This document shows positions 51,248-60,926 of a stretch of 64,000 nt of DNA, piece by piece; the stretch's first letter is position 1; each line of letters begins with the position of its first letter. Source of the stretch: Streptomyces alboniger (GTDB taxonomy: Bacteria > Actinomycetota > Actinomycetes > Streptomycetales > Streptomycetaceae); assembly GCF_008704395.1 (NCBI RefSeq), contig NZ_CP023695.1, positions 6,572,001-6,636,000 on the forward strand, read 5' to 3'. The translations under genes were made by a program, and so were the position numbers. The notes under the pieces were generated by a model, which saw only the letters and a program-made list of their open reading frames with translations, did no database searches and was not told the DNA's origin.

Positions 51248-53827
51248 TTGTTGAGGTCGCGCGCTGTGCTGGTGCTGCTCGTGCTCTGCGCGGTGCTGTG
51301 GCCCGCGCGGGCGGGAGCCGAGGAGAAACCGGCGATACCGGGGCAGAATCTGGCGGGCCTGTGGTGCCCGACCGAGGGCTCGGGCAAGGCGAGGGCGAGC
51401 GCCTCCATCCGCCTGCGGCACAGCGGCAGCGTCCACACCAAGGTGACCGCGCGGCTGACCGTCCACGTCCCGTCCTCCTGGCGGTACACCAAGTCCCTGC
51501 TGCTCAGCGAGGACACGGACGGCTACCGCCGGGCCATGCGCTGCTTCGCCCGGCCCCACGGAACGCAGCACCGCTGGTGGGGCGAGTGGCGGTCCGAGGG
51601 AAGCCCGCGGGTGAGCGCGGAGAAGGGCGGCCTGCGGGTCACGCTGGACACCTTCTCCTGGATCGACGAGGACAACGGCTGGTTCTCGCTCGGCCCCTGG
51701 AAGATCGAGCAGGGCACCGCCCACTGGCGAATCCTGTTCGAACCGGTCCCCGGCCTGCGCAGCGTGAAATGGACGAAGATCCTCGTCGACCCGGGTGCCC
51801 CCGGAGCCGAGTCCGCCACGCCGAAACCCACCACGAAGGAGGACGCCACCGCGCTGGTGTGGCGTCCCAAGGGCGAGAAGGCGCCGCCACCCGTCGCCGT
51901 ACGGCTCGAACCGGACTGGCGGCGTTCGTACGCCGCCCAGGACAACCGCTTCCTGTTCGCCAACCTCAACGACGGCGGCAACATGGCGTATACGTTCGTG
52001 GTGTCGGGACTGATGCTGTACGCGGTCGCACGACTGCGACGGCGCGCCGGGGCGAGCACCCTCGAAGCGGAATCCGCGACGACGCTCAGGGACTGGGCGT
52101 GGGTCTCGACGGGCGCCGTCATCGTGTTCGACGGCGACGCCGTCCTGTTCCGCTGGCTGAGGGCCCTCGGTGACGACGAGCTGTGGACGGCGCGGGAGCC
52201 CCGCCTCATCTTCGCCGCCTCGGTCTGCACGGCCACCCTCCTCCTGGCCTTCGCGCGGCCGCGCCGCCCCGTCGTCCTGGCGGGCGCGGCGCTGGCCGTG
52301 CCCGTACTGGCCGTCGCCTTCCAGCCGCACCTGCTCGGCCTGCCCGCCGATCTCGACGTCAGCGACGGCACGTCGTACCGCGCGTTCTACGCGCTGAGCA
52401 TCGCGGGCGGCTCGGCGCAGGCGCTCACCTTCCTCGCGGTCACGGCCGCCGCCTGGCGCCTCGCCCGCGCCGCCGATCTGATCCCGCCGAGCCGCAGGAC
52501 ACCGGGAGCACCGCGCGAACTGCTCATGCGGTACGCGGGACCGCTGATCGTCACCCTCACCCTGGCCGTCGGCGCGTGCTACATCCTGGCCGCCGAGCGC
52601 AACTGGCAGCGAGCCTCCTGGCTGAGCGACCACGGCGACCCTCAGTACGGCATCGAGCACCGCGGCGAACTGCGCGGGGACGTCACGTGGTTCGTCGTGA
52701 ACAGCCAGAACTGGTGGCTGCCGGTGTGGCTCCTCACCGGAATCGCCCTCCTCGCCGCGCTGCGCGCGGCCGCCGCACGGCCCACCGACTCACCCGTCGA
52801 GGACCGCGAGGACCGCCGCGTCCTCATGATCTTCTTCCCCGTCGTGGTCGGCATGGGCCTTGGAGTCTTCGCCAACAACGGCCTCCTGAGCGTCCTGTGG
52901 GTCTTCTTCAACATGCTGGCGCTGCGGCTCGTCCTCGCCGTCGGCGCGCGCAAGGCCGTACTCAACCGCGCACTGGAGTCCTCGACGGAGCGGCTCGGCG
53001 TCACCGTGACCGCCGCGCGACGCGCCGACATCCTCGGCCGGGCCCGCCGCTACCGCGAGATCCACGCGAAGATGCGCCGCCTCGACCACGGTCAGTCGGA
53101 CGACGACATACTCCAACGCCGCCTGCTCGAACAGGAGGTGCGGGGCCTGCACACCTGGACCGACAGCGCGGGGACCACCGGCAGGCTGCCCGCCCAGGTC
53201 TCCGTCGTCGACGTGGCGCTCGCCCTCGGGCCGCGCGACACCTGGTGGGGCAACGGCCGCAGGGCCGCCCTCCTCGCCTGCCTCCTCGGGCTCCCGGCGA
53301 GCACGGTCGTCGTCTGGTCGGGGTGGATCCGCGGCGACCACTGGCGCGCCAACCTCCACCACGGCTTCGGCCTGCCCGACATCCCCATGGGCTTTCTGAC
53401 CTGGCAGGTCTGCTGGGCGGGCGCGGGCTTCGTGCTCGGCGCGCTGTGGCGCGCGCTGCCGGGGCGACGCGGCCCGGTGAAGGCGCTGACCGTCGCCGCG
53501 GCCTACGCGCTGCCCGCCGTACCGGACGCGCTCGGGAACTTCGCCCTGGACCAGGGACACGGCGACCTGGCCCTGATCGTGGTGACGATGCTGCCCGTCC
53601 TCACGCTCACCGGCATCGCCCTGGACCTGGAGACCTTCCAGGGCGAACGCAGGTACTGGCAGAGCAGGGTCGGGCTGCTCCTGTCGATCTACCAGATGCG
53701 GTACTTCTCGCTCCAGCTCGCCTACCTGGTGGCCCAGGCGGTGGCCCTGATCACCCTCTGGCAGTTCTTCGCCGACACCGGCGGGGGGCCACCGCCCAAG
53801 GAGTTCGAGGGCGGTGGCGGCCGCTGA
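51248..53827 (+). CDS. Large membrane protein, possibly DUF6185
   Basis: About 859 residues; the start is a TTG at 51248 (or 51251) just after GGAGCGG. Signal sequence LVLLVLCAVLWPARAGAEE. A beta-rich outside domain of about 210 residues (GLWCPTEGSGKARASASIRL, LDTFSWIDEDNGWFSLGPW) is followed by 6-7 helices. Then comes a charged, coiled-coil-like cytoplasmic stretch (ARRYREIHAKMRRLDHGQSDDDILQRRLLEQEVRGL, about 595-635), and more helices to the end. I think this corresponds to the Streptomyces DUF6185 proteins, but only from memory. Function unknown. It stands alone and converges on the endonuclease gene. Confidence 0.65.
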   Translation: MLRSRAVLVLLVLCAVLWPARAGAEEKPAIPGQNLAGLWCPTEGSGKARASASIRLRHSGSVHTKVTARLTVHVPSSWRYTKSLLLSEDTDGYRRAMRCFARPHGTQHRWWGEWRSEGSPRVSAEKGGLRVTLDTFSWIDEDNGWFSLGPWKIEQGTAHWRILFEPVPGLRSVKWTKILVDPGAPGAESATPKPTTKEDATALVWRPKGEKAPPPVAVRLEPDWRRSYAAQDNRFLFANLNDGGNMAYTFVVSGLMLYAVARLRRRAGASTLEAESATTLRDWAWVSTGAVIVFDGDAVLFRWLRALGDDELWTAREPRLIFAASVCTATLLLAFARPRRPVVLAGAALAVPVLAVAFQPHLLGLPADLDVSDGTSYRAFYALSIAGGSAQALTFLAVTAAAWRLARAADLIPPSRRTPGAPRELLMRYAGPLIVTLTLAVGACYILAAERNWQRASWLSDHGDPQYGIEHRGELRGDVTWFVVNSQNWWLPVWLLTGIALLAALRAAAARPTDSPVEDREDRRVLMIFFPVVVGMGLGVFANNGLLSVLWVFFNMLALRLVLAVGARKAVLNRALESSTERLGVTVTAARRADILGRARRYREIHAKMRRLDHGQSDDDILQRRLLEQEVRGLHTWTDSAGTTGRLPAQVSVVDVALALGPRDTWWGNGRRAALLACLLGLPASTVVVWSGWIRGDHWRANLHHGFGLPDIPMGFLTWQVCWAGAGFVLGALWRALPGRRGPVKALTVAAAYALPAVPDALGNFALDQGHGDLALIVVTMLPVLTLTGIALDLETFQGERRYWQSRVGLLLSIYQMRYFSLQLAYLVAQAVALITLWQFFADTGGGPPPKEFEGGGGR

Positions 53828-53836
53828 GGAGTCAGG

Positions 53837-54655
53837 TCACCACACCTCTTCGACCCACTCCGGGTGATCGATGAACGGGTTCCTGTTGTGCTGGAACTTG
53901 TCGAATATGACCTGGTTGCGGTTCTTCTCGAAGGCGTCCGGCGGGTCCTCGGCGTTCCACTTCTTCAGGACCGACAGGCGCCCGATGGCGGGCGCGCTGC
54001 CGTTGTCCACCCGGTCGTTGGGCTCCAGGTCGGGGAAGCCGGCCTCGCCGTCGTAGCGGACGGCCATGTAGAGGATCATGCGGGCCACATCGCCCTTGAC
54101 CTCGTCGCGGGGCTCGAACGAGTCGGCGTCCGTGAGGTTGCCCGGGGCGCCGCCGACCGCGCCACCGCCGTTGTCGAAGTCCTTGTTGCCGCGGATGCTG
54201 TTGACGGTGACGTCCTCGGGGCGCAGATGGTGGATGTCCGTGCCGGGGCCGGTCGCCGTGCCGAAGTCCCCGTGGGACTTGGCCCAGACGTGCTCGCGGT
54301 TCCAGTCGCCCTGGTCGCCGCCGCTCGCGCTCTTGGCCCGTGAGGCGCCGGTGTAGAGCAGGATCACGTTCGCGCTGTTGGCCGGATCCTGGTCGGTGGT
54401 CTTCAGCGCGTCCCAGACCTGGTCGTACGACAGCTTGGTCTGGTCGCTCACGATCGTGTGCAGCGCGGACTTCAGCTCGGTGCCGGTCTTGCCGAGGGCG
54501 TCCTGGTAGTACGTGTCGTCGTAGGCGGGGGCGGCGGTGGGGGAGGCCGTGGCTGTGGGGGAGGCCGTGGCCGTGGCCGGCACGGTGATGCCGACGAGCA
54601 CGGTGGCGGTGGCCAGAGCCAGGGGCTTCCAGCGGCTTACGCGCGGGACGGGCAT
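53837..54655 (-). CDS. Secreted endonuclease I-type nuclease
   Basis: 272 residues from the ATG at 54655. Signal peptide WKPLALATATVLVGITVPATATA followed by a Pro/Thr/Ala linker with a short repeat (ASPTATASPTAAP). The nuclease core has the endonuclease I His-Me motif WNREHVWAKSHGDFG...TDIHHLRPEDVTVNSIRGNKDFDNGG, with His and Asn metal ligands. Such enzymes degrade DNA outside the cell, for nutrition or around programmed cell death. Divergent from the HerA-like operon, 276 bases away. Confidence 0.9.
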   Translation of the reverse strand: MPVPRVSRWKPLALATATVLVGITVPATATASPTATASPTAAPAYDDTYYQDALGKTGTELKSALHTIVSDQTKLSYDQVWDALKTTDQDPANSANVILLYTGASRAKSASGGDQGDWNREHVWAKSHGDFGTATGPGTDIHHLRPEDVTVNSIRGNKDFDNGGGAVGGAPGNLTDADSFEPRDEVKGDVARMILYMAVRYDGEAGFPDLEPNDRVDNGSAPAIGRLSVLKKWNAEDPPDAFEKNRNQVIFDKFQHNRNPFIDHPEWVEEVW

Positions 54656-54931
54656 GTGGGGGTGTGTCCTTTCCCGGAGGCCTCGCGTGCCGGACAGCCG
54701 TTCAAGGGGCCTGCGGTCTACGCGAGTTGACTGATCAACCATCGGGAGAGTGGCACGGGTGTGCGGACGACTGTGTGAACGTCGTGGGTCGGTCGGGTAA
54801 CGATGTCATGTACGCGGCCAAATGGGGCGTCGACGCTCGGGAGGAAAGGGGTGAATGCGCAGGTCAGGGGCGCGACTTCAGCGCGCAGAGGGGGGTGGGG
54901 AGTGCTAGCGTGGGGATGAGGAAGCGATGTC

Positions 54932-55672
54932 ATGCGTTGCCAGTCCTGCGGGTTCGAGAATCGCGTCGGCTCTGCCTACTGCGAACAGTGCCGTACCGCG
55001 CTGACCCGCCCTTGCGCCTCGTGCGGCGACCCCGTGGCGGCCTCGGCGCAGCACTGTCCGGCATGCGGGGCCCCTACTGCGGGCGGATCCTCCAGGCCCT
55101 CTCCAGCGGGCGGAGCAGCCTCCAGGCCGTACGAAGCCCCCACATCGGGCGGGCCCCCGCGGCCTAGGCCGTACGACGCCCCGACATCGTACGGAGCTGC
55201 GAGTACGTATGGGGCCCCGCCTCGGGCGACACCGCGCGAGGCACGCCAAGGCTCCGGGAGAGACCACTTCACCGGGGTCGTCCGGGACTTCCAGGCTCGC
55301 CGCGAGCAGTGGGGGAACGGCGGCGAGGAAGAGATCTGGCACTTCCGCATCGAACGCCACGACGCGAGCGGGAACGCCCTCAAGCTCATCCCGGTGGAGA
55401 TGCGCGGGCTCTCCTTCTCCGGGTCCGTGAGCAACGGCGACGAAGTACGGCTGCACGGCCGTTGGCGCGACGGGACCCTGCGCGCCGACGAGCTGACGAA
55501 CCTCACCACGCACGCGCGCGTGCGGGCCAAGGCGTACCGGAGCCTTCGCGTGCTCGCCGTGGTCCTCGCCGTCCTCATCGGCCTGTTCGTCATCGGCATG
55601 TTCGTGAGCGTCGGGATCTCGGCCTGTACGGACACCGGAGGACCGCCTCCGGGCTGGCCCACGGAGCCCTGA
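54932..55672 (+). CDS. Zinc-ribbon, OB-like, single-pass membrane protein
   Basis: 246 residues; a -10-like TAGCGT lies at 54906-54911. Order of parts: two zinc-ribbon units at 3-45 (CQSCG...CEQC and CASCG...CPACG); a Gly/Pro/Ser/Tyr-rich flexible linker with repeated YxAPTS (about 46-105); a beta-rich domain that looks like an OB fold (DHFTGVVRDFQ, KLIPVEMRG, NGDEVRLHGRWRDGTLRADELTNLTT, about 110-195); and one membrane helix at about 203-230. The N-terminus is probably cytoplasmic. First gene of a four-gene operon, one base ahead of the HerA-like ATPase, and so a candidate membrane anchor or substrate adaptor for it. Confidence 0.75.
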   Translation: MRCQSCGFENRVGSAYCEQCRTALTRPCASCGDPVAASAQHCPACGAPTAGGSSRPSPAGGAASRPYEAPTSGGPPRPRPYDAPTSYGAASTYGAPPRATPREARQGSGRDHFTGVVRDFQARREQWGNGGEEEIWHFRIERHDASGNALKLIPVEMRGLSFSGSVSNGDEVRLHGRWRDGTLRADELTNLTTHARVRAKAYRSLRVLAVVLAVLIGLFVIGMFVSVGISACTDTGGPPPGWPTEP

Positions 55673-55673
55673 C

Positions 55674-58600
55674 ATGAGCGACCCGGTGACCACGGCAGCG
55701 GTCGACTACCTGCAACGCACCAGGCTCCGTCCGCTCTGGCAGGCAGGCGCGGAGGCCGTGGTCCCCATGGCTGCGCGCCGGGCGGTGCGGGTGACCGGCG
55801 TCGGACAGCCGGTGACCGCCCAGGCCCAGCCCCCGCCCGGCAGCGGCAAGCCGTCCGACGACCCGGGCTTCGAACCGGCGACCCTGCCCCTGCTCGTGGG
55901 CCTCGCCGGAGCGGGCGCGCCCCTGGCCTTCCTCCTCGACGGCAGCGGGCAGGGGATCTCCGTCCGCCTGGGCACCTGGGCCGAGGACGGCATGGACGAG
56001 GCGGGCCTGGACGCCCGGCAGCGGATGCTGCTCGGCATCCTCGACGGCTGCTACCCGGCCGTGGGCATCACGGCGGCCGGCGTCGGCGTGCCCCGGCTCG
56101 GCTACGGCGCGCTCGCCCTCGGAGTCCCCAGCCCCGCCGTCGTCGACACCAGGGACGGCGCCCTGCCGGTGGACCGCCTCGTCCGGTCCATGAGCGGAAC
56201 GCGTTGGGCCGCACTCGTCCTCGCCGCCCCGGTCGGGGCCGACGCGCTCGGCGCCGACCGCAACCGCGTCCTCAACGAAATGCGCGTGGTGTCCTCCGCG
56301 GTCGAGGCCAAGGGCGTGAGCAGCCCGCTGGCCACGCACTACGTGGAACTGCTCCAGGCACGCCTGGAAGCCCTCGCCGACGCGCACGCGCGCGGCGGCT
56401 GGCGTACGGCCGTCTACCTCTTCGGCGAGCGCCCCGAGGACGTGACCGCCCTCGCCAGCGCCTGGCGTGCCGTGTTCTCCGGCGCGAGGTCGGTCCCCGA
56501 GCCGGTGCGCACCCTCCCGCACCCCGCCGTGCCCGGCCTGGGCGGCGGCTGGGCGCTGCCCGCCGACGCCGAGCAGCCGGGACCGAACCTGTACCAGCAC
56601 CCGTATGCCGCGCAGACCGTGCTGAGTTCGGCCCAGCTCGCCGCGTACGTGCACCTGCCCCAGCTGGAGACCCTGGGCTTCTCCGTCAGCCCGCTCGCCC
56701 GCTTCGACGTCGTCGCGCCACCCGTGAGCGGCGACGAGCACCACCTCGTCGTCGGCGACGTGCTCCACCATCACCGGGCGACGGGCACCACGTACCGTGT
56801 GCCGCTGCGCTCCCTCAGCCGGCACGTGTTCATCCCCGGCACGACCGGCTCGGGCAAGACGAACACGATCATGGGCCTGCTGATCGAGGCGACCGCGAAC
56901 GGCGTGCCGTTCCTCGTGATCGAACCGGCCAAGACCGAATACCGCGCCCTGATCGAGCACCCCGCCCTGGGACAGAGCCTCCAGGTGTTCACCGCGGGCA
57001 AGGCCACCGTCGCGCCGTTCGTCCTCAACCCCTTCGAGGCACCGGAGGGCACGACCGTCAGCGAACACCTCGACCTGCTCCGCGCCGTGTTCACGGCCGC
57101 GTTCGGCATGTGGACCCCCCTGCCGCAGATCCTGGAGCGCTGCCTGCACGAGGTGTACGCCGACCGCGGCTGGGACCTGCGGACCAACCTCAACTCCCGG
57201 CTCGACGGCGCCGGGAGTGTGACCGCGGACGCCTTCCCCACGCTCTCCGACCTGATCGCGAAGGTCACCGAGGTCATCCCCACCCTCGGCTACGAGGACC
57301 GGATCGCCGGGGACATGCGCGCCGCCCTCCTCACCCGCCTCGAATCCCTGCGGCGCGGCGCCAAGGGGGCGATGCTCGACGTGTCGCGCTCGCTGCCACC
57401 GGCCCAGCTGTTCGGCACCCCCACCGTCGTCGAGCTGGACGCCCTGGGCGACGAGGGCGACAAGGCGTTCTTCACCGGCCTGCTCCTGATCCGCCTGGTC
57501 GAACACCGCCGCGCGCAGGGGCAGTCGCGCGAACTCGTCCACCTGCTGGTGGTGGAGGAGGCGCACCGGCTGCTGGAGAACGTCCAGTCCTCGTCCTCGG
57601 AAGAGACGGCGAACCCCAAGGGGCAGGCCGTGGAGACCTTCTCCAACCTGCTCTCCGAGATCCGCGCCTACGGGCAAGGCGTGATCATCGCCGACCAGGT
57701 ACCGGTACGGCTGGCACCCGACGTGATCAAGAACAGCAATCTCAAGATCACCCATCGGGTCATCGCCGGGGACGACCGTGCCGCGCTCGCCGCGGCGATG
57801 GCCATGGACGAGGCCCAGGCCAGAGCGCTCGTCACTCTGGGGGTGGGCGAAGCCGTGGTGTTCAGCGGAGGAGACGACGCGCCCCTGCTGGTCCGCGTGC
57901 CGCCCGTGAAGGACCCGCTCTCGCCCCGCCCTCCCACCGACGCCCAGGTGCAGGAGCACATGCGGCGCTGGCGGGAGGCGGGAGCCTTCACGGACCTCTT
58001 TCTGCCGCAGCCGTTCTGCGCCGAGACCTGCGCCACTCCCGCGGCCTGCGCGGCGGCCCGGGAACTCACCGGCGACGTGTACGTCCAGCGCGTCCTGTCC
58101 CGGCTGCTCACGTCCGCCGTCGACGAGGCGGGGGCACCGGACCGGCTCCGGGACGACCTCGGCACCGCGCTGCGCGCCCGCCGCCCCGCGTCCGTACCGA
58201 CGGCCGACCTGCTGCGTGCCTTCGCGGGCCATGGCGCGGAGTGGCTCACCACCCGGCGCGGCAGCCAGCGCGGGTGGTCCTACGCCGACACCGCCGAGCT
58301 GTGCGACCGGCTGCGCGCGGTACTCCTCGACCAGGCCGACAAGGCCGACAGGACCGGCCAGGTCGACAGAACCGGCCAGGTCGACAGCACCGGCCAGGCC
58401 GACGGAACCGGCCAGGTCGGCACCGGCGGCCGCGACTCGGCCCGCGACACGGCGGCGCTCGTCGAAGCGCTCCAGCAGACGGCACGGCGCCTGCACGCCC
58501 GCCAGTTCGAGCCCTATCCCGTCTGCCACCTGGTCTGCTCGCAGGATCCGCCGCTGTGCCTGTACCGCTCGGCGGTGGCCGACCTGGTGGCGTCCCGCCG

Positions 58601-58874
58601 CTACCAGTCCCCGTGGCGGGACGCGGACCGCAACGACGCGGCCTCGGAGGACAAGCGGCGGCGCCAGACATGGGAGATCTGCCAGGACGCGGCCTACGAA
58701 CTGGTCGAATTCCCCACCGACGACATGCCGGAGGAGGCCAGGACCGCACTCGACACCGCCGCACGACGGGCCTGCCTCTGCTTCGAACAGCAGATGCTCG
58801 CCGACGACGAGCGCAAGCCGCCCCGCACCGCCCGCCGCATACTGGCCCACGTCCTCGGAGAGGCGGGCTGGTGA
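55674..58874 (+). CDS. HerA/FtsK-like ATPase with Cys-rich C-terminal extension
   Basis: 1066 residues. An N-terminal part of about 380 residues of unknown fold is followed by a HerA-type (DUF87) ATPase: Walker A GTTGSGKT (389-396), Walker B LLVVEEAH (624-631), sensor-like GVIIADQVPVRLAPDVIKNSNLKITHRV, and the C-terminal VGEAVVFSGGDDAPLLVRVPP. The last 280 residues are unusual: two Cys clusters (FCAETCATPAACAAA about 782; PVCHLVCSQDPPLC about 940) and a run of four 6-residue repeats TGQVDR-like (892-915, coded by 18-bp tandem repeats at 58347-58418). HerA/FtsK ATPases translocate DNA or protein through a central pore. No NurA-type nuclease is beside it. TGATG overlap with the next gene. Confidence 0.85.
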   Translation: MSDPVTTAAVDYLQRTRLRPLWQAGAEAVVPMAARRAVRVTGVGQPVTAQAQPPPGSGKPSDDPGFEPATLPLLVGLAGAGAPLAFLLDGSGQGISVRLGTWAEDGMDEAGLDARQRMLLGILDGCYPAVGITAAGVGVPRLGYGALALGVPSPAVVDTRDGALPVDRLVRSMSGTRWAALVLAAPVGADALGADRNRVLNEMRVVSSAVEAKGVSSPLATHYVELLQARLEALADAHARGGWRTAVYLFGERPEDVTALASAWRAVFSGARSVPEPVRTLPHPAVPGLGGGWALPADAEQPGPNLYQHPYAAQTVLSSAQLAAYVHLPQLETLGFSVSPLARFDVVAPPVSGDEHHLVVGDVLHHHRATGTTYRVPLRSLSRHVFIPGTTGSGKTNTIMGLLIEATANGVPFLVIEPAKTEYRALIEHPALGQSLQVFTAGKATVAPFVLNPFEAPEGTTVSEHLDLLRAVFTAAFGMWTPLPQILERCLHEVYADRGWDLRTNLNSRLDGAGSVTADAFPTLSDLIAKVTEVIPTLGYEDRIAGDMRAALLTRLESLRRGAKGAMLDVSRSLPPAQLFGTPTVVELDALGDEGDKAFFTGLLLIRLVEHRRAQGQSRELVHLLVVEEAHRLLENVQSSSSEETANPKGQAVETFSNLLSEIRAYGQGVIIADQVPVRLAPDVIKNSNLKITHRVIAGDDRAALAAAMAMDEAQARALVTLGVGEAVVFSGGDDAPLLVRVPPVKDPLSPRPPTDAQVQEHMRRWREAGAFTDLFLPQPFCAETCATPAACAAARELTGDVYVQRVLSRLLTSAVDEAGAPDRLRDDLGTALRARRPASVPTADLLRAFAGHGAEWLTTRRGSQRGWSYADTAELCDRLRAVLLDQADKADRTGQVDRTGQVDSTGQADGTGQVGTGGRDSARDTAALVEALQQTARRLHARQFEPYPVCHLVCSQDPPLCLYRSAVADLVASRRYQSPWRDADRNDAASEDKRRRQTWEICQDAAYELVEFPTDDMPEEARTALDTAARRACLCFEQQMLADDERKPPRTARRILAHVLGEAGW

Positions 58875-59473
58875 TGGGACCCCGGATGCTCGACAAAGTG
58901 CGCGCCGACAACGACCGCGCGGTGGAGGAATCCCGCGCCAAGGGACAGGCCGAGTACGACAAGTTCAGCAGGGAAGCGGCGGAACTGTCCGCCCAGGCCA
59001 TGGAACGGACGGGCCTGCCGGGATCGGACATCGCCGCCGCCGCGCTGCGCGCGTCGGTGGGTGATTACGACGGCTTGGCCAAAATGGGCAGCGAGCCCGG
59101 AAAGCTTCCCGGCGGTCTCGGAGGCGCGGACGGCATCGCCGTCGGTACCCCGAAGGCGGGCGCGTCCATCGAGAAGATGCTGCCGGGCACGGGCATGCTG
59201 CTGAGCGGCTCGGGCTCCACCAAGCTCGGCGAGGGCATCGATCTCGACCTGAAACTCGGCTTCCCCGGCTTCGCGCAGGACGGCGGCCGTTCCGGGAAGC
59301 CGGGGGAGGGCGGCACCGAGCTGAGACCCGAGGGACGGGAGCCCGGCGCGGACTCCGGCGCGGAGCGGTACGGGCGCGGCGCGAGCGACTTGGCGTCCCG
59401 TCCACTGGCGGGGGCGTCCGCGGAGAAGCGGGATCTCGTCGCGGACTTCATCGACCGTACCCTTCGTCACTGA
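58874..59473 (+). CDS. Unrecognised soluble protein in the HerA-like operon
   Basis: 199 residues from the ATG sharing one base with the HerA-like stop. An N-terminal helical, charged stretch (MLDKVRADNDRAVEESRAKGQAEYDKFSREAAELSAQ, likely coiled coil) is followed by a Gly/Leu/Ser-rich middle (LPGGLGGADGIAVGTPKAG, GTGMLLSGSGSTKLGEG) and a Gly/Glu/Arg-rich disordered stretch. It ends in a short helix, EKRDLVADFIDRTLRH. No Cys, no signal peptide, no membrane helix. I do not recognise the family. Tight coupling argues for work with the ATPase. Confidence 0.6.
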   Translation: MGPRMLDKVRADNDRAVEESRAKGQAEYDKFSREAAELSAQAMERTGLPGSDIAAAALRASVGDYDGLAKMGSEPGKLPGGLGGADGIAVGTPKAGASIEKMLPGTGMLLSGSGSTKLGEGIDLDLKLGFPGFAQDGGRSGKPGEGGTELRPEGREPGADSGAERYGRGASDLASRPLAGASAEKRDLVADFIDRTLRH

Positions 59474-59489
59474 CAGACCGGATGACGTC

Positions 59490-60926
59490 ATGTCCGAGCG
59501 CGACAACGAACAGACCGAACGCACCGAACAGCCGAAATCCCCGGCCGAGGGCGCGCGGGACGGGCCGGACTCCTCGGTCAGGCAGGACCGGCCGGATCTG
59601 GGCACGCCCCGGGACGCGGGCACTCACGGCACGCCCCGGGACGCGGGCACTCACGGCACAGCCCCTGGCGGCTCCCGCGAGACCGACGCGAACCGGCCGA
59701 GGCTGCCCGAGGCCTCCCCCTCGTACCGCACTATGGAGTACCGCAACGAGGACCGCCTCGCCGAGAAGCCGCCTCACACCCTGGAGTTGCGCAAGGAGGA
59801 CATGACCCCGGATGCCGTGTCCTACGTGAAGTACACGGGGACCACGGAGAACACGGCCTCGGGCGGCATGAGCGGCCCGAACGCCACGTCCTCCCCCGGC
59901 CGCACGGAAGCGGCGCCCGTACAGACCGAGGACCCGAGAGTCGCGAAGCCGGGCGAGCCCGCCGCGCAGAAGCAGGCCGAGAAGCCCGAGAAGCCCGAGA
60001 AGAAGGGGGCGGACGGGCGGACCGATACGGATGTCCGCAAGGAACTGGAGAAGAAGACGGGCAAGAGCTACAACGAACTCGTCGTGGGGCTGGGCCGGGG
60101 CCCGATCGACCCCGCCAAGATCTCGCCCCGCGACCTCGAACGCGAGCTGGTGAACAATGGCACGCTCCGGCCGATCCTGATGGACACCAAGGAGCCTGTC
60201 GTCATCGACAACGTCCTGACCCCGGACTCCTACCGGGAGCAGTGGTTCTACAACGACGGCCGCGTCGGTCCCGAGAGCAAGATCGACGCGGCCAAGGCCG
60301 CAGGGCAGCAGGCCGTCAGGGACGCCGTGGTCCAGGGGATCGCGTCCGGAATCGCCGGTATGAGGCCCGGTTCCGCGTCCGACGGCATCGTGAAGCCCGC
60401 GCCCGAGCAACGGCGGTACGAGCCCCGGCCGCCGACGACCTATGAGCCGCGCCAGGGCGCCTACCACCCCGAGCCGCCCAAGTGGGGCGGCAAAGGCCCC
60501 CAGGGACCCGAGAACAACAGTCAGCTGACGGTGCCCCGTGTCGTGACGGGCGAGGTCAAGACCGCGAACTCGATCGAGGAGGGCCGGAACAAGACGCTGA
60601 CGGAGTGGGCCGCCCAGCACCCGGAGAAGTCCTGCGTGGCCGTCGTGACGTACGACGCCCACGGGAACCTCGGCATGGAGGTCTACCTGGCGGGCGGCAA
60701 TCAGGACCTGGTCTGGCGCAACGACAACATCGGCCACATCGACCCGTCGAAACTGCCCAAAGAGGCATACCAGTCCAGCGCGTTCGGCACCAAGATAGAG
60801 CCCGCCGTGACCCAGTACGTGGGCGAATACCTCGGCCAGCACTTCCAGACCAAATCGGGCAGCGCGACGGGCCCCGACCTCGTCCCCGGCCAGTCGAAGA
60901 TGAAGTTCAACCTGATGACGAAGTAA
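59490..60926 (+). CDS. Unrecognised protein with disordered N-terminus and C-terminal globular domain
   Basis: 478 residues. The first 195 or so are hydrophilic and disordered, with a 27-bp tandem repeat (59601-59627, 59628-59654) giving GTPRDAGTH twice, and Lys/Glu/Pro runs. Globular stretches follow: VRKELEKKTGKSYNELVVGLGRGPIDPAKISPRDLERELVNN (about 190-230), a helical DAAKAAGQQAVRDAVVQGIASGIAGM, a Pro/Tyr-rich link, and a final domain of about 140 residues (RVVTGEVKTANSIEEGRNKTL, CVAVVTYDAHGNLGMEVYLAGG, AFGTKIEPAVTQYVGEYLGQHF). Disordered carrier plus compact C-terminal domain recalls exported polymorphic toxins, but no catalytic motif is recognised. Last gene of the operon. Confidence 0.6.
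   Translation: MSERDNEQTERTEQPKSPAEGARDGPDSSVRQDRPDLGTPRDAGTHGTPRDAGTHGTAPGGSRETDANRPRLPEASPSYRTMEYRNEDRLAEKPPHTLELRKEDMTPDAVSYVKYTGTTENTASGGMSGPNATSSPGRTEAAPVQTEDPRVAKPGEPAAQKQAEKPEKPEKKGADGRTDTDVRKELEKKTGKSYNELVVGLGRGPIDPAKISPRDLERELVNNGTLRPILMDTKEPVVIDNVLTPDSYREQWFYNDGRVGPESKIDAAKAAGQQAVRDAVVQGIASGIAGMRPGSASDGIVKPAPEQRRYEPRPPTTYEPRQGAYHPEPPKWGGKGPQGPENNSQLTVPRVVTGEVKTANSIEEGRNKTLTEWAAQHPEKSCVAVVTYDAHGNLGMEVYLAGGNQDLVWRNDNIGHIDPSKLPKEAYQSSAFGTKIEPAVTQYVGEYLGQHFQTKSGSATGPDLVPGQSKMKFNLMTK

Follow-up and report, generated by a model that had tools for sequence, protein, structure and literature searches.

Four consecutive genes of Streptomyces alboniger (NZ_CP023695.1) form an operon at positions 54932–60926 of the 64,000-nucleotide stretch analysed here (the window), at about 6.63 Mb in the genome. 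They encode a membrane protein (gene 1), a HerA/FtsK-type ATPase (gene 2), a soluble protein (gene 3), and a candidate effector (gene 4). A preliminary description had presented the four genes as one unit that moves DNA or proteins, possibly in antiphage defence or effector delivery, and the genes are real at the coordinates of Table 1. Its interpretation holds in part: effector delivery by a HerA/FtsK-type machine is supported, but the fixed set of four genes and the antiphage option are not. The operon probably joins a motor and an anchor, common to many bacteria and some archaea, with cargo that is swapped between strains, which would make it an undescribed route of effector delivery.

A conserved motor and its membrane anchor

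Pfam matches over the cut-off (DUF87, 4.2e-7; HerA_C, 7.5e-6; FtsK_SpoIIIE, 1.8e-5), invariant motifs (Table 1), and the closest solved chain by profile, HERA 4d2i (9.7e-12), place gene 2 in the HerA/FtsK superfamily. The protein search returned 1194 homologues. The PADLOC models mad8 and HerA match gene 2 as well (best 3.5e-16), the Pfam model TrwB matches slightly below its cut-off, and the NCBIfam HerA equivalogs of repair and defence score far below theirs (NF042943, 42.8 of 800 bits; NF040937, 35.5 of 800; NF040819, 31.4 of 970). Both Cys clusters may bind metal. The NCBIfam model NF033849 ("serine-rich protein") matches the window ATPase at 5.6e-33, yet far below its cut-off, and a repeat-rich insert of TGQVD-type units in the C-terminal part (window 58341–58440) is missing in the other 27 aligned sequences.

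Gene 1 carries two zinc ribbons, an oligonucleotide/oligosaccharide-binding (OB) barrel of the type found in single-stranded-DNA-binding proteins (SSB), and one transmembrane helix. Many of its homologues are only about 140 residues long, with no zinc-ribbon domain listed. By eye, two relatives appear to have extracellular-type tails after the transmembrane helix, PASTA-like in locus L086 and PKD-like in L074.

For the comparison of loci, a scan of genome contigs gave 78 distinct loci, taken from the best 80 of at least 565 confirmed stretches. Twelve further regions and four contigs labelled viral raised the number to 94, and 17 Streptomyces loci added later raised it to 111. It should be noted that many loci come from metagenome bins, in which contigs may be misplaced (the contig of the haloarchaeon Halorubellus is from an isolate), and that genes were called with a home-made procedure based on codon usage.

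A one-pass profile of the OB and transmembrane part, built from gene 1 of the window and 24 homologues and applied at E ≤ 0.01, found gene 1 at most 3 kb from the ATPase in 36 of the 94 loci (weakest near match, E = 0.0099) and farther away in a single locus, with 0.86 Mb of DNA searched beyond 3 kb as against 0.72 Mb within it. This profile replaced an earlier iterated one, which matched 53 of the 94 loci and included zinc-ribbon-only and distant matches. The 36 loci span nine named bacterial phyla and include, in addition, three archaeal loci; among the 17 later Streptomyces loci the profile matches only in L172 and L173, which duplicate earlier loci. One large block of the ATPase tree consists mostly of gene-1 loci; the tree was made with a fast method, which warned of composition and of long branches. 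The tree was built without L094 of Streptomyces philanthi, where the ATPase was called in three pieces.

The conserved core thus consists of gene 1 and the HerA-like ATPase, and the genes behind the ATPase vary. The four genes do not travel as the single unit first proposed, since only gene 1 is widely co-conserved: relatives of gene 3 occur in 5 of the 111 loci (L064, which is the window, L065, L066, L071, and L172) and those of gene 4 in 4 (L064, L065, L072, and L172), with L065 and L172 representing one genome. The preliminary description had named such absence or variation of the two small proteins beside ATPase orthologues as its refutation.

The occurrence of the ATPase is patchy. Strong matches (E < 1e-60) were found in 8 of 61 relatives and in 5 of 296 genomes of the phylum, the own genome being counted in both, and matches at E ≤ 1e-20 in 19 of 295 Streptomyces species. 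The loci belong to Actinomycetota, Chloroflexota, Cyanobacteriota, Pseudomonadota, Planctomycetota, and others, and to the archaea Bathyarchaeota and Halorubellus.

Table 1. Features of the operon (window positions) and domains of interest behind the ATPase in related loci (L numbers)
Feature	Position or locus	Strand	Remarks
Gene 1: double zinc ribbon, SSB/PriB-fold OB barrel, C-terminal transmembrane helix	54932..55672	+	
Gene 1, zinc ribbons, residues 3-48	54938..55075	+	Cys 3, 6, 17, 20, 28, 31, 42, 45; Pfam DZR 1.2e-8, residues 3-46
Gene 1, OB barrel, SSB/PriB-like, residues 107-195	55250..55516	+	
Gene 1, transmembrane helix, residues 203-232	55538..55627	+	Hydropathy peak 207-225
Gene 2: HerA/FtsK-type ATPase, 1066 residues	55674..58874	+	
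Gene 2, Walker A, residues 389-396	56838..56861	+	G389, T391, G392, G394, K395 invariant, 28 sequences
Gene 2, Walker B region, residues 623-631	57540..57566	+	H623, E628, E629, A630, H631 invariant, 28 sequences
Gene 2, first Cys cluster (782, 786, 792), C-terminal region	58017..58049	+	Invariant, 28 sequences
Gene 2, second Cys cluster (951, 955, 962)	58524..58559	+	C951, C962 invariant, C955 nearly so, 28 sequences
Gene 3: soluble, 199 residues	58874..59473	+	Homologues right behind the ATPase in L065, L066, L071, L172 (= L065)
Gene 4: candidate effector (cargo), 478 residues	59490..60926	+	
Gene 4, hydrophobic-poor N-terminal part, about residues 1-172	59490..60005	+	Candidate delivery signal
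Gene 4, central module, about residues 173-330	60006..60479	+	Common to DUF4157 cargo and other ATPase-linked cargo
Gene 4, C-terminal tail, about residues 331-478	60480..60926	+	Presumed effector domain
RHS	L056		Over Pfam cut-off
TNT	L058		3.4e-21, over Pfam cut-off
WHH, then SMI1_KNR4 (SUKH) gene	L059		WHH over Pfam cut-off; four-base overlap
Peptidase_C2 (calpain-like)	L061, L176, L187		Over Pfam cut-off
WHH/colicin DNase	L143		Over Pfam cut-off
Endonuclea_NS_2	L146		2e-25, over Pfam cut-off
Peptidase_Mx	L139		Over Pfam cut-off
ADPrib_exo_Tox	L180		3.5e-28, over Pfam cut-off
Zeta_toxin	L181		1.1e-38, over Pfam cut-off
RelA_SpoT-like, candidate alarmone-synthetase effector	L179:12213-13154		26.7 bits, cut-off 27; two genes behind ATPase
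DUF6406, 85-91 residues, candidate immunity proteins	L176:5611-5865, L187:11816-12088		Directly behind calpain-like cargo

Variable genes behind the ATPase

The variation behind the ATPase follows a pattern. We defined an N-terminus as hydrophobic-poor when hydrophobic residues make up less than 30% of residues 2–81, and scored the gene following the ATPase (+1 gene) in 106 loci; L098, L104, and L107, where a second ATPase comes next, were dropped, as were L144, a duplicate of L143, and L172, a duplicate of L065. L173, apparently a copy of L081, was kept, and neither has a +1 gene within 300 nucleotides. Among same-strand +1 genes within 60 nucleotides, 34 of 48 encode a hydrophobic-poor N-terminus, and 19 of 29 do so after ATPases are collapsed at 60% identity. 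The background, with proteins shorter than 100 residues and three paralogous ATPases left out, is about 1% among the 304 genes that lie more than three places from the ATPase and 8% among the 60 genes directly upstream. A control with other HerA/FtsK-type ATPases yielded no hydrophobic-poor +1 gene, and carries little weight because only 3 (within 60 nucleotides) and 4 (within 300 nucleotides) were usable.

By a crude hydropathy test, an N-terminal hydrophobic (Sec-like) segment is present in 2 of 98 downstream proteins as against 62 of 407 others. HExxH motifs are found in 10 of the 98 and 8 of the 407, including gene-1 loci L117, L127, L129, L138, and L141, and WxG within the first 120 residues in 9 of the 98, i.e., at the background rate (11% of the 407). 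A motif N-x-D-F-D-P in cargo N-termini was dropped, with only 2 of 65 proteins carrying it.

Toxin-type domains were sought in 69 of 74 downstream proteins (short, duplicate, and paralogous-ATPase rows being left out). Among the 25 of 75 Pfam families listed at E ≤ 0.05 are Peptidase_Mx (4 proteins), WHH (2), and Colicin-DNase (2), with single cases of Endonuclea_NS_2, TNT, RHS, and caspase. We also scanned singly 40 proteins from 34 loci chosen by eye, and 11 of these loci have a toxin-type domain over the cut-off, a share that is no frequency given the selection; the domains are in the first, second, or third gene after the ATPase. Among the rest, L132, which has no gene 1, gave a sub-cut-off metallopeptidase match and L138 only a sub-cut-off Imm40 match, while the cargo of the gene-1 loci L141, L076, and L088 gave no metallopeptidase match. 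The cargo of L055, L062, L063, L070, L083, L086, L091, L127, L140, L183, L186, and the window had no Pfam match or one below the cut-off. Taken as a whole, the ATPase family shows variable C-terminal toxin domains as in polymorphic toxins, with several toxin-type families and exchange of tails. Hydrophobic-poor N-termini and toxin-type tails in related loci are what would be expected of swappable cargo.

Gene 4 fits the preliminary description of its product as an exported effector, as contractile-injection cargo contains the same central module. DUF4157, a core domain of extracellular contractile injection systems (eCIS), lies at the N-terminus of 10 of 17 gene 4 homologues (itself excluded), and these share the central part and not the N-terminus. 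P0127, which has DUF4157, and P0128, from Nonomuraea, have 202 identities over residues 167–474 and 171–478, respectively, i.e., to the end, but no alignment is seen over the first 120 residues (z = −0.2), and the start of P0128 aligns instead with the cargo behind the ATPase of Herbidospora (L066, z = 12.0); an ATPase gene is predicted beside that for P0128. The same effector unit thus follows two unlike N-terminal parts. Over its first 120 residues, gene 4 resembles the start of P0128 (z = 5.3) and not that of P0127 (z = −0.8). Its tail recurs in P0126 and P0129, and different tails follow the same central module in P0127/P0128 and in P0131/P0134.

In the 1058 proteins of the 111 loci, a profile of the central module matches only genes one or two places behind the ATPase, in Streptomyces loci and in one locus of Chitinophagaceae (Bacteroidota, 1.6e-10). 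The relative of gene 4 in Streptomyces lateritius is 71% identical over 64% of gene 4 and starts inside the end of the ATPase gene; the ATPase there is only 44% identical to that of the window, and the N-terminus of the cargo is unlike that of gene 4 (z = 0.7).

These shared modules bear on the notion that the motor serves eCIS particles whose genes lie elsewhere in the genome, by loading or processing their cargo. The host genome does contain two DUF4157 open reading frames of the eCIS cargo type (G000:C1:7654756 and 7657316) about 1 Mb from the operon, but no gene of the operon resembles that locus (only E ≥ 0.3). DUF4157 is present in 14 of 19 ATPase-bearing Streptomyces as against 190 of 295 Streptomyces overall, and five ATPase-bearing species are without it. 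These counts indicate that the eCIS and ATPase systems share cassettes without a clear association at the level of genomes. An eCIS accessory was rejected, as there is no clear co-occurrence in Streptomyces, and we regard it as very improbable.

Gene 3 gave no family match in Pfam, NCBIfam, or PADLOC scans, and in two of the loci that bear it, L066 and L071, the cargo differs from gene 4; it is probably an accessory protein or a second cargo. The neighbours upstream of the operon (window 51248–54742) encode a protein with a DUF6185 match (2.4e-242) and a member of the endonuclease I family (4.4e-40), the latter on the opposite strand. A scan for sigma-70 promoters and intrinsic terminators gave no match.

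In clades outside the gene-1 block, genes labelled by eye as a Ser/Thr-rich ATPase-like protein, a dynamin-like GTPase, or a large membrane ATPase precede the ATPase. The GTPase, of about 840–860 residues, is found in L063, L143, and L144, on contigs partly labelled viral. An ATPase-like membrane protein with Ser/Thr-rich stretches accompanies the ATPase in a gene-1-less clade (L056, L057, L061, L062, and others), and in L176 an M48 peptidase gene adjoins one for a 732-residue protein with no Pfam match. Obscuribacterales and their kin (L097–L115, L131, L142) have the large membrane ATPase-like protein upstream and LysM-like proteins on the opposite strand downstream, and in many of these loci the +1 protein is a conserved one of about 120–220 residues; this clade is a sister system with less variable neighbours.

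Proposed effector delivery and its alternatives

On balance, we lean towards the operon encoding a two-part effector-delivery module together with its current cargo. Gene 1 would be a membrane-anchored adaptor, with the zinc ribbons and the SSB-fold OB domain on one side of a single transmembrane helix, and gene 2 presumably forms a hexameric ring that docks on gene 1 and pulls the cargo. Gene 4 would be this cargo: its hydrophobic-poor N-terminus would be recognised by the module, and an exchangeable C-terminal effector domain, putatively toxic, would follow the central module on its way through a presumed pore to a target. A delivery system is the best fit for a constant motor and anchor with variable effectors that have no Sec-like segments. 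As far as sequence comparison goes, it is the exchange of modules that links the cargo of the window to delivery; from an effector cassette beside the motor we infer that the motor exports the cassette. As a tentative extension, which we hold to be possible but short of probable, such loci may form an undescribed class of protein secretion in Bacteria and Archaea, with a membrane-tethered SSB-fold anchor, a HerA-type ring, and polymorphic effectors that travel by disordered N-termini, their cassettes being traded with contractile injection systems.

Several points weigh against delivery. HerA-type motors are best known as DNA movers, and gene 1 has the fold of an ssDNA-binding protein. No pore gene was identified, and export of the cargo is a prediction. 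None of the 11 loci with a toxin-type domain over the cut-off has a gene-1 match, which places the clearest toxins in sister clades; in singly scanned gene-1 loci no toxin-type domain reached the Pfam cut-off, and apart from the modules that gene 4 shares, gene-1 loci gave only sub-cut-off metallopeptidase matches (L117, L129) and HExxH motifs. By the home-made gene caller, and with contig ends included, 50 of the 106 loci lack a same-strand +1 gene that is 81 residues or longer and lies within 300 nucleotides. The N-terminus of gene 4 is only weakly, if at all, similar to the cargo of L066 (z = 2.3), to P0139 (2.0), and to three other ATPase-linked cargos (1.0–1.8); a common signal sequence is therefore not shown. 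The tail of gene 4 has no family match, the structure model of residues 170–478 is poor (predicted local distance difference test, 55), and no immunity gene follows, the next gene lying 10 bases on and on the opposite strand.

A rival reading is an intracellular anti-invader system, in which the HerA-type motor would seize invading DNA and set loose an effector (nuclease, protease, or ADP-ribosyltransferase) that resides in the same cell, an arms race accounting for the diversity. A section of PMC12839542 describes "capture" systems of the HerA/FtsK kind that use effector nucleases, the PADLOC matches and closest solved relatives of the ATPase are HerA-type, OB and zinc-ribbon folds are appropriate to nucleic acid, and the proteases, ADP-ribosyltransferases, and nucleases found could also serve as suicide effectors. 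However, the anchor is membrane-bound, and a SUKH-family gene behind one nuclease cargo, the presence of RHS, and the modules of DUF4157 cargo in gene 4 are typical of delivered toxins. Genes 1, 3, and 4 had no PADLOC match, and no PADLOC family matched more than one of the 69 downstream proteins; the antiphage option of the preliminary description therefore finds no support, and a defence system was rejected for want of a partner. We consider an intracellular system unlikely.

Both the HerA motor and the SSB-like fold of the OB barrel are compatible with the handling of DNA, and genes 1 and 2 might move DNA in transfer or uptake, in the manner of Ced or VirB4-like systems, with the downstream genes as passengers or co-carried proteins. 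But neither a relaxase nor a pilin was conspicuous in the part of the recurring neighbour clusters inspected by eye, where Ktedonobacteria alone showed VirB6/TrbL-like genes, and a pure DNA importer would not need the hydrophobic-poor N-terminus that most close +1 genes encode. We regard DNA transfer as quite improbable.

Polymorphic toxins are classed by their route of travel, and delivery by a HerA-family motor, if true, would add a further system across many phyla, archaea included. It would explain a large set of "ATP-binding protein" and "DUF87" annotations, and the genes behind the ATPase would be a genomic handle for new effectors and immunity proteins. Should the cargo act inside the cell, an unusually diverse HerA defence family would be at hand instead.

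Comparison with known systems

Type VII secretion systems (T7SS), common in Actinomycetota, use the FtsK/HerA-superfamily motor EccC/EssC, which has several FtsK domains, for toxin cargo without a Sec signal. The operon has in common with them the motor superfamily, cargo without a Sec-like signal, and the occurrence in Actinomycetota. Unlike T7SS, and as judged from the operon only, it has one P-loop region in the ATPase (Pfam), and a single-transmembrane OB protein takes the place of the T7SS membrane set. Nor are cargo N-termini enriched in WXG: genes 3 and 4 have no Pfam match to WXG100/LXG-type cargo, and the sole WxG of gene 4 is at residue 332.

HerA–NurA and HerA–SIR2/DUF4297 systems have the HerA-type ATPase core in common with the operon, which differs in its membrane anchor. 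The absence of such partners, noted in the preliminary description, is borne out for genes 1, 3, and 4, where Pfam and PADLOC gave no NurA, SIR2, or DUF4297 match.

The Ced/CedD DNA importer of Crenarchaeota, as presented in part of PMC11868833, likewise has a HerA-clade ATPase, to which gene 2 has a distant NCBIfam match. In contrast, no CedA-like channel was identified at the operon, and related loci carry toxin-type cargo.

With eCIS that carry DUF4157 cargo (passages of PMC11297309, which also place DUF4157 sometimes in effectors of type VI secretion systems), gene 4 has the central module in common, and P0127 and P0128 also share the tail. Unlike eCIS cargo, gene 4 has no DUF4157 by Pfam and a different N-terminal part.

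In open-licence full-text literature, the scope of our search (subscription journals and preprints lay outside it), no description of the ATPase family with toxin cargo was found. One report may have encountered the same kind of locus: according to an excerpt of PMC12691689, signal-less alarmone synthetases of Streptomyces adjoin "TrwB/TrwK" genes, and the near-cut-off TrwB match and the RelA_SpoT-like cargo suggest that those loci may correspond to ours.

A parallel in organisation is with the polymorphic toxin systems described in 2012 (PMC3482391, in the sections drawn on here). The passages used of PMC7159879 likewise assign trafficking to the constant components of such systems. In those sections of PMC3482391, FtsK/HerA-type ATPases are named only for T7SS and type IV secretion systems, and an ATPase with an OB-fold anchor is not named; gene 4 also differs from the cargo considered there in having no recognised WXG/LXG, PAAR, or DUF4157 domain. 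As in those systems, a constant trafficking part is combined with variable C-terminal toxin-type domains, some of which have a candidate immunity-type gene beside them, and one tail can stand behind different delivery parts.

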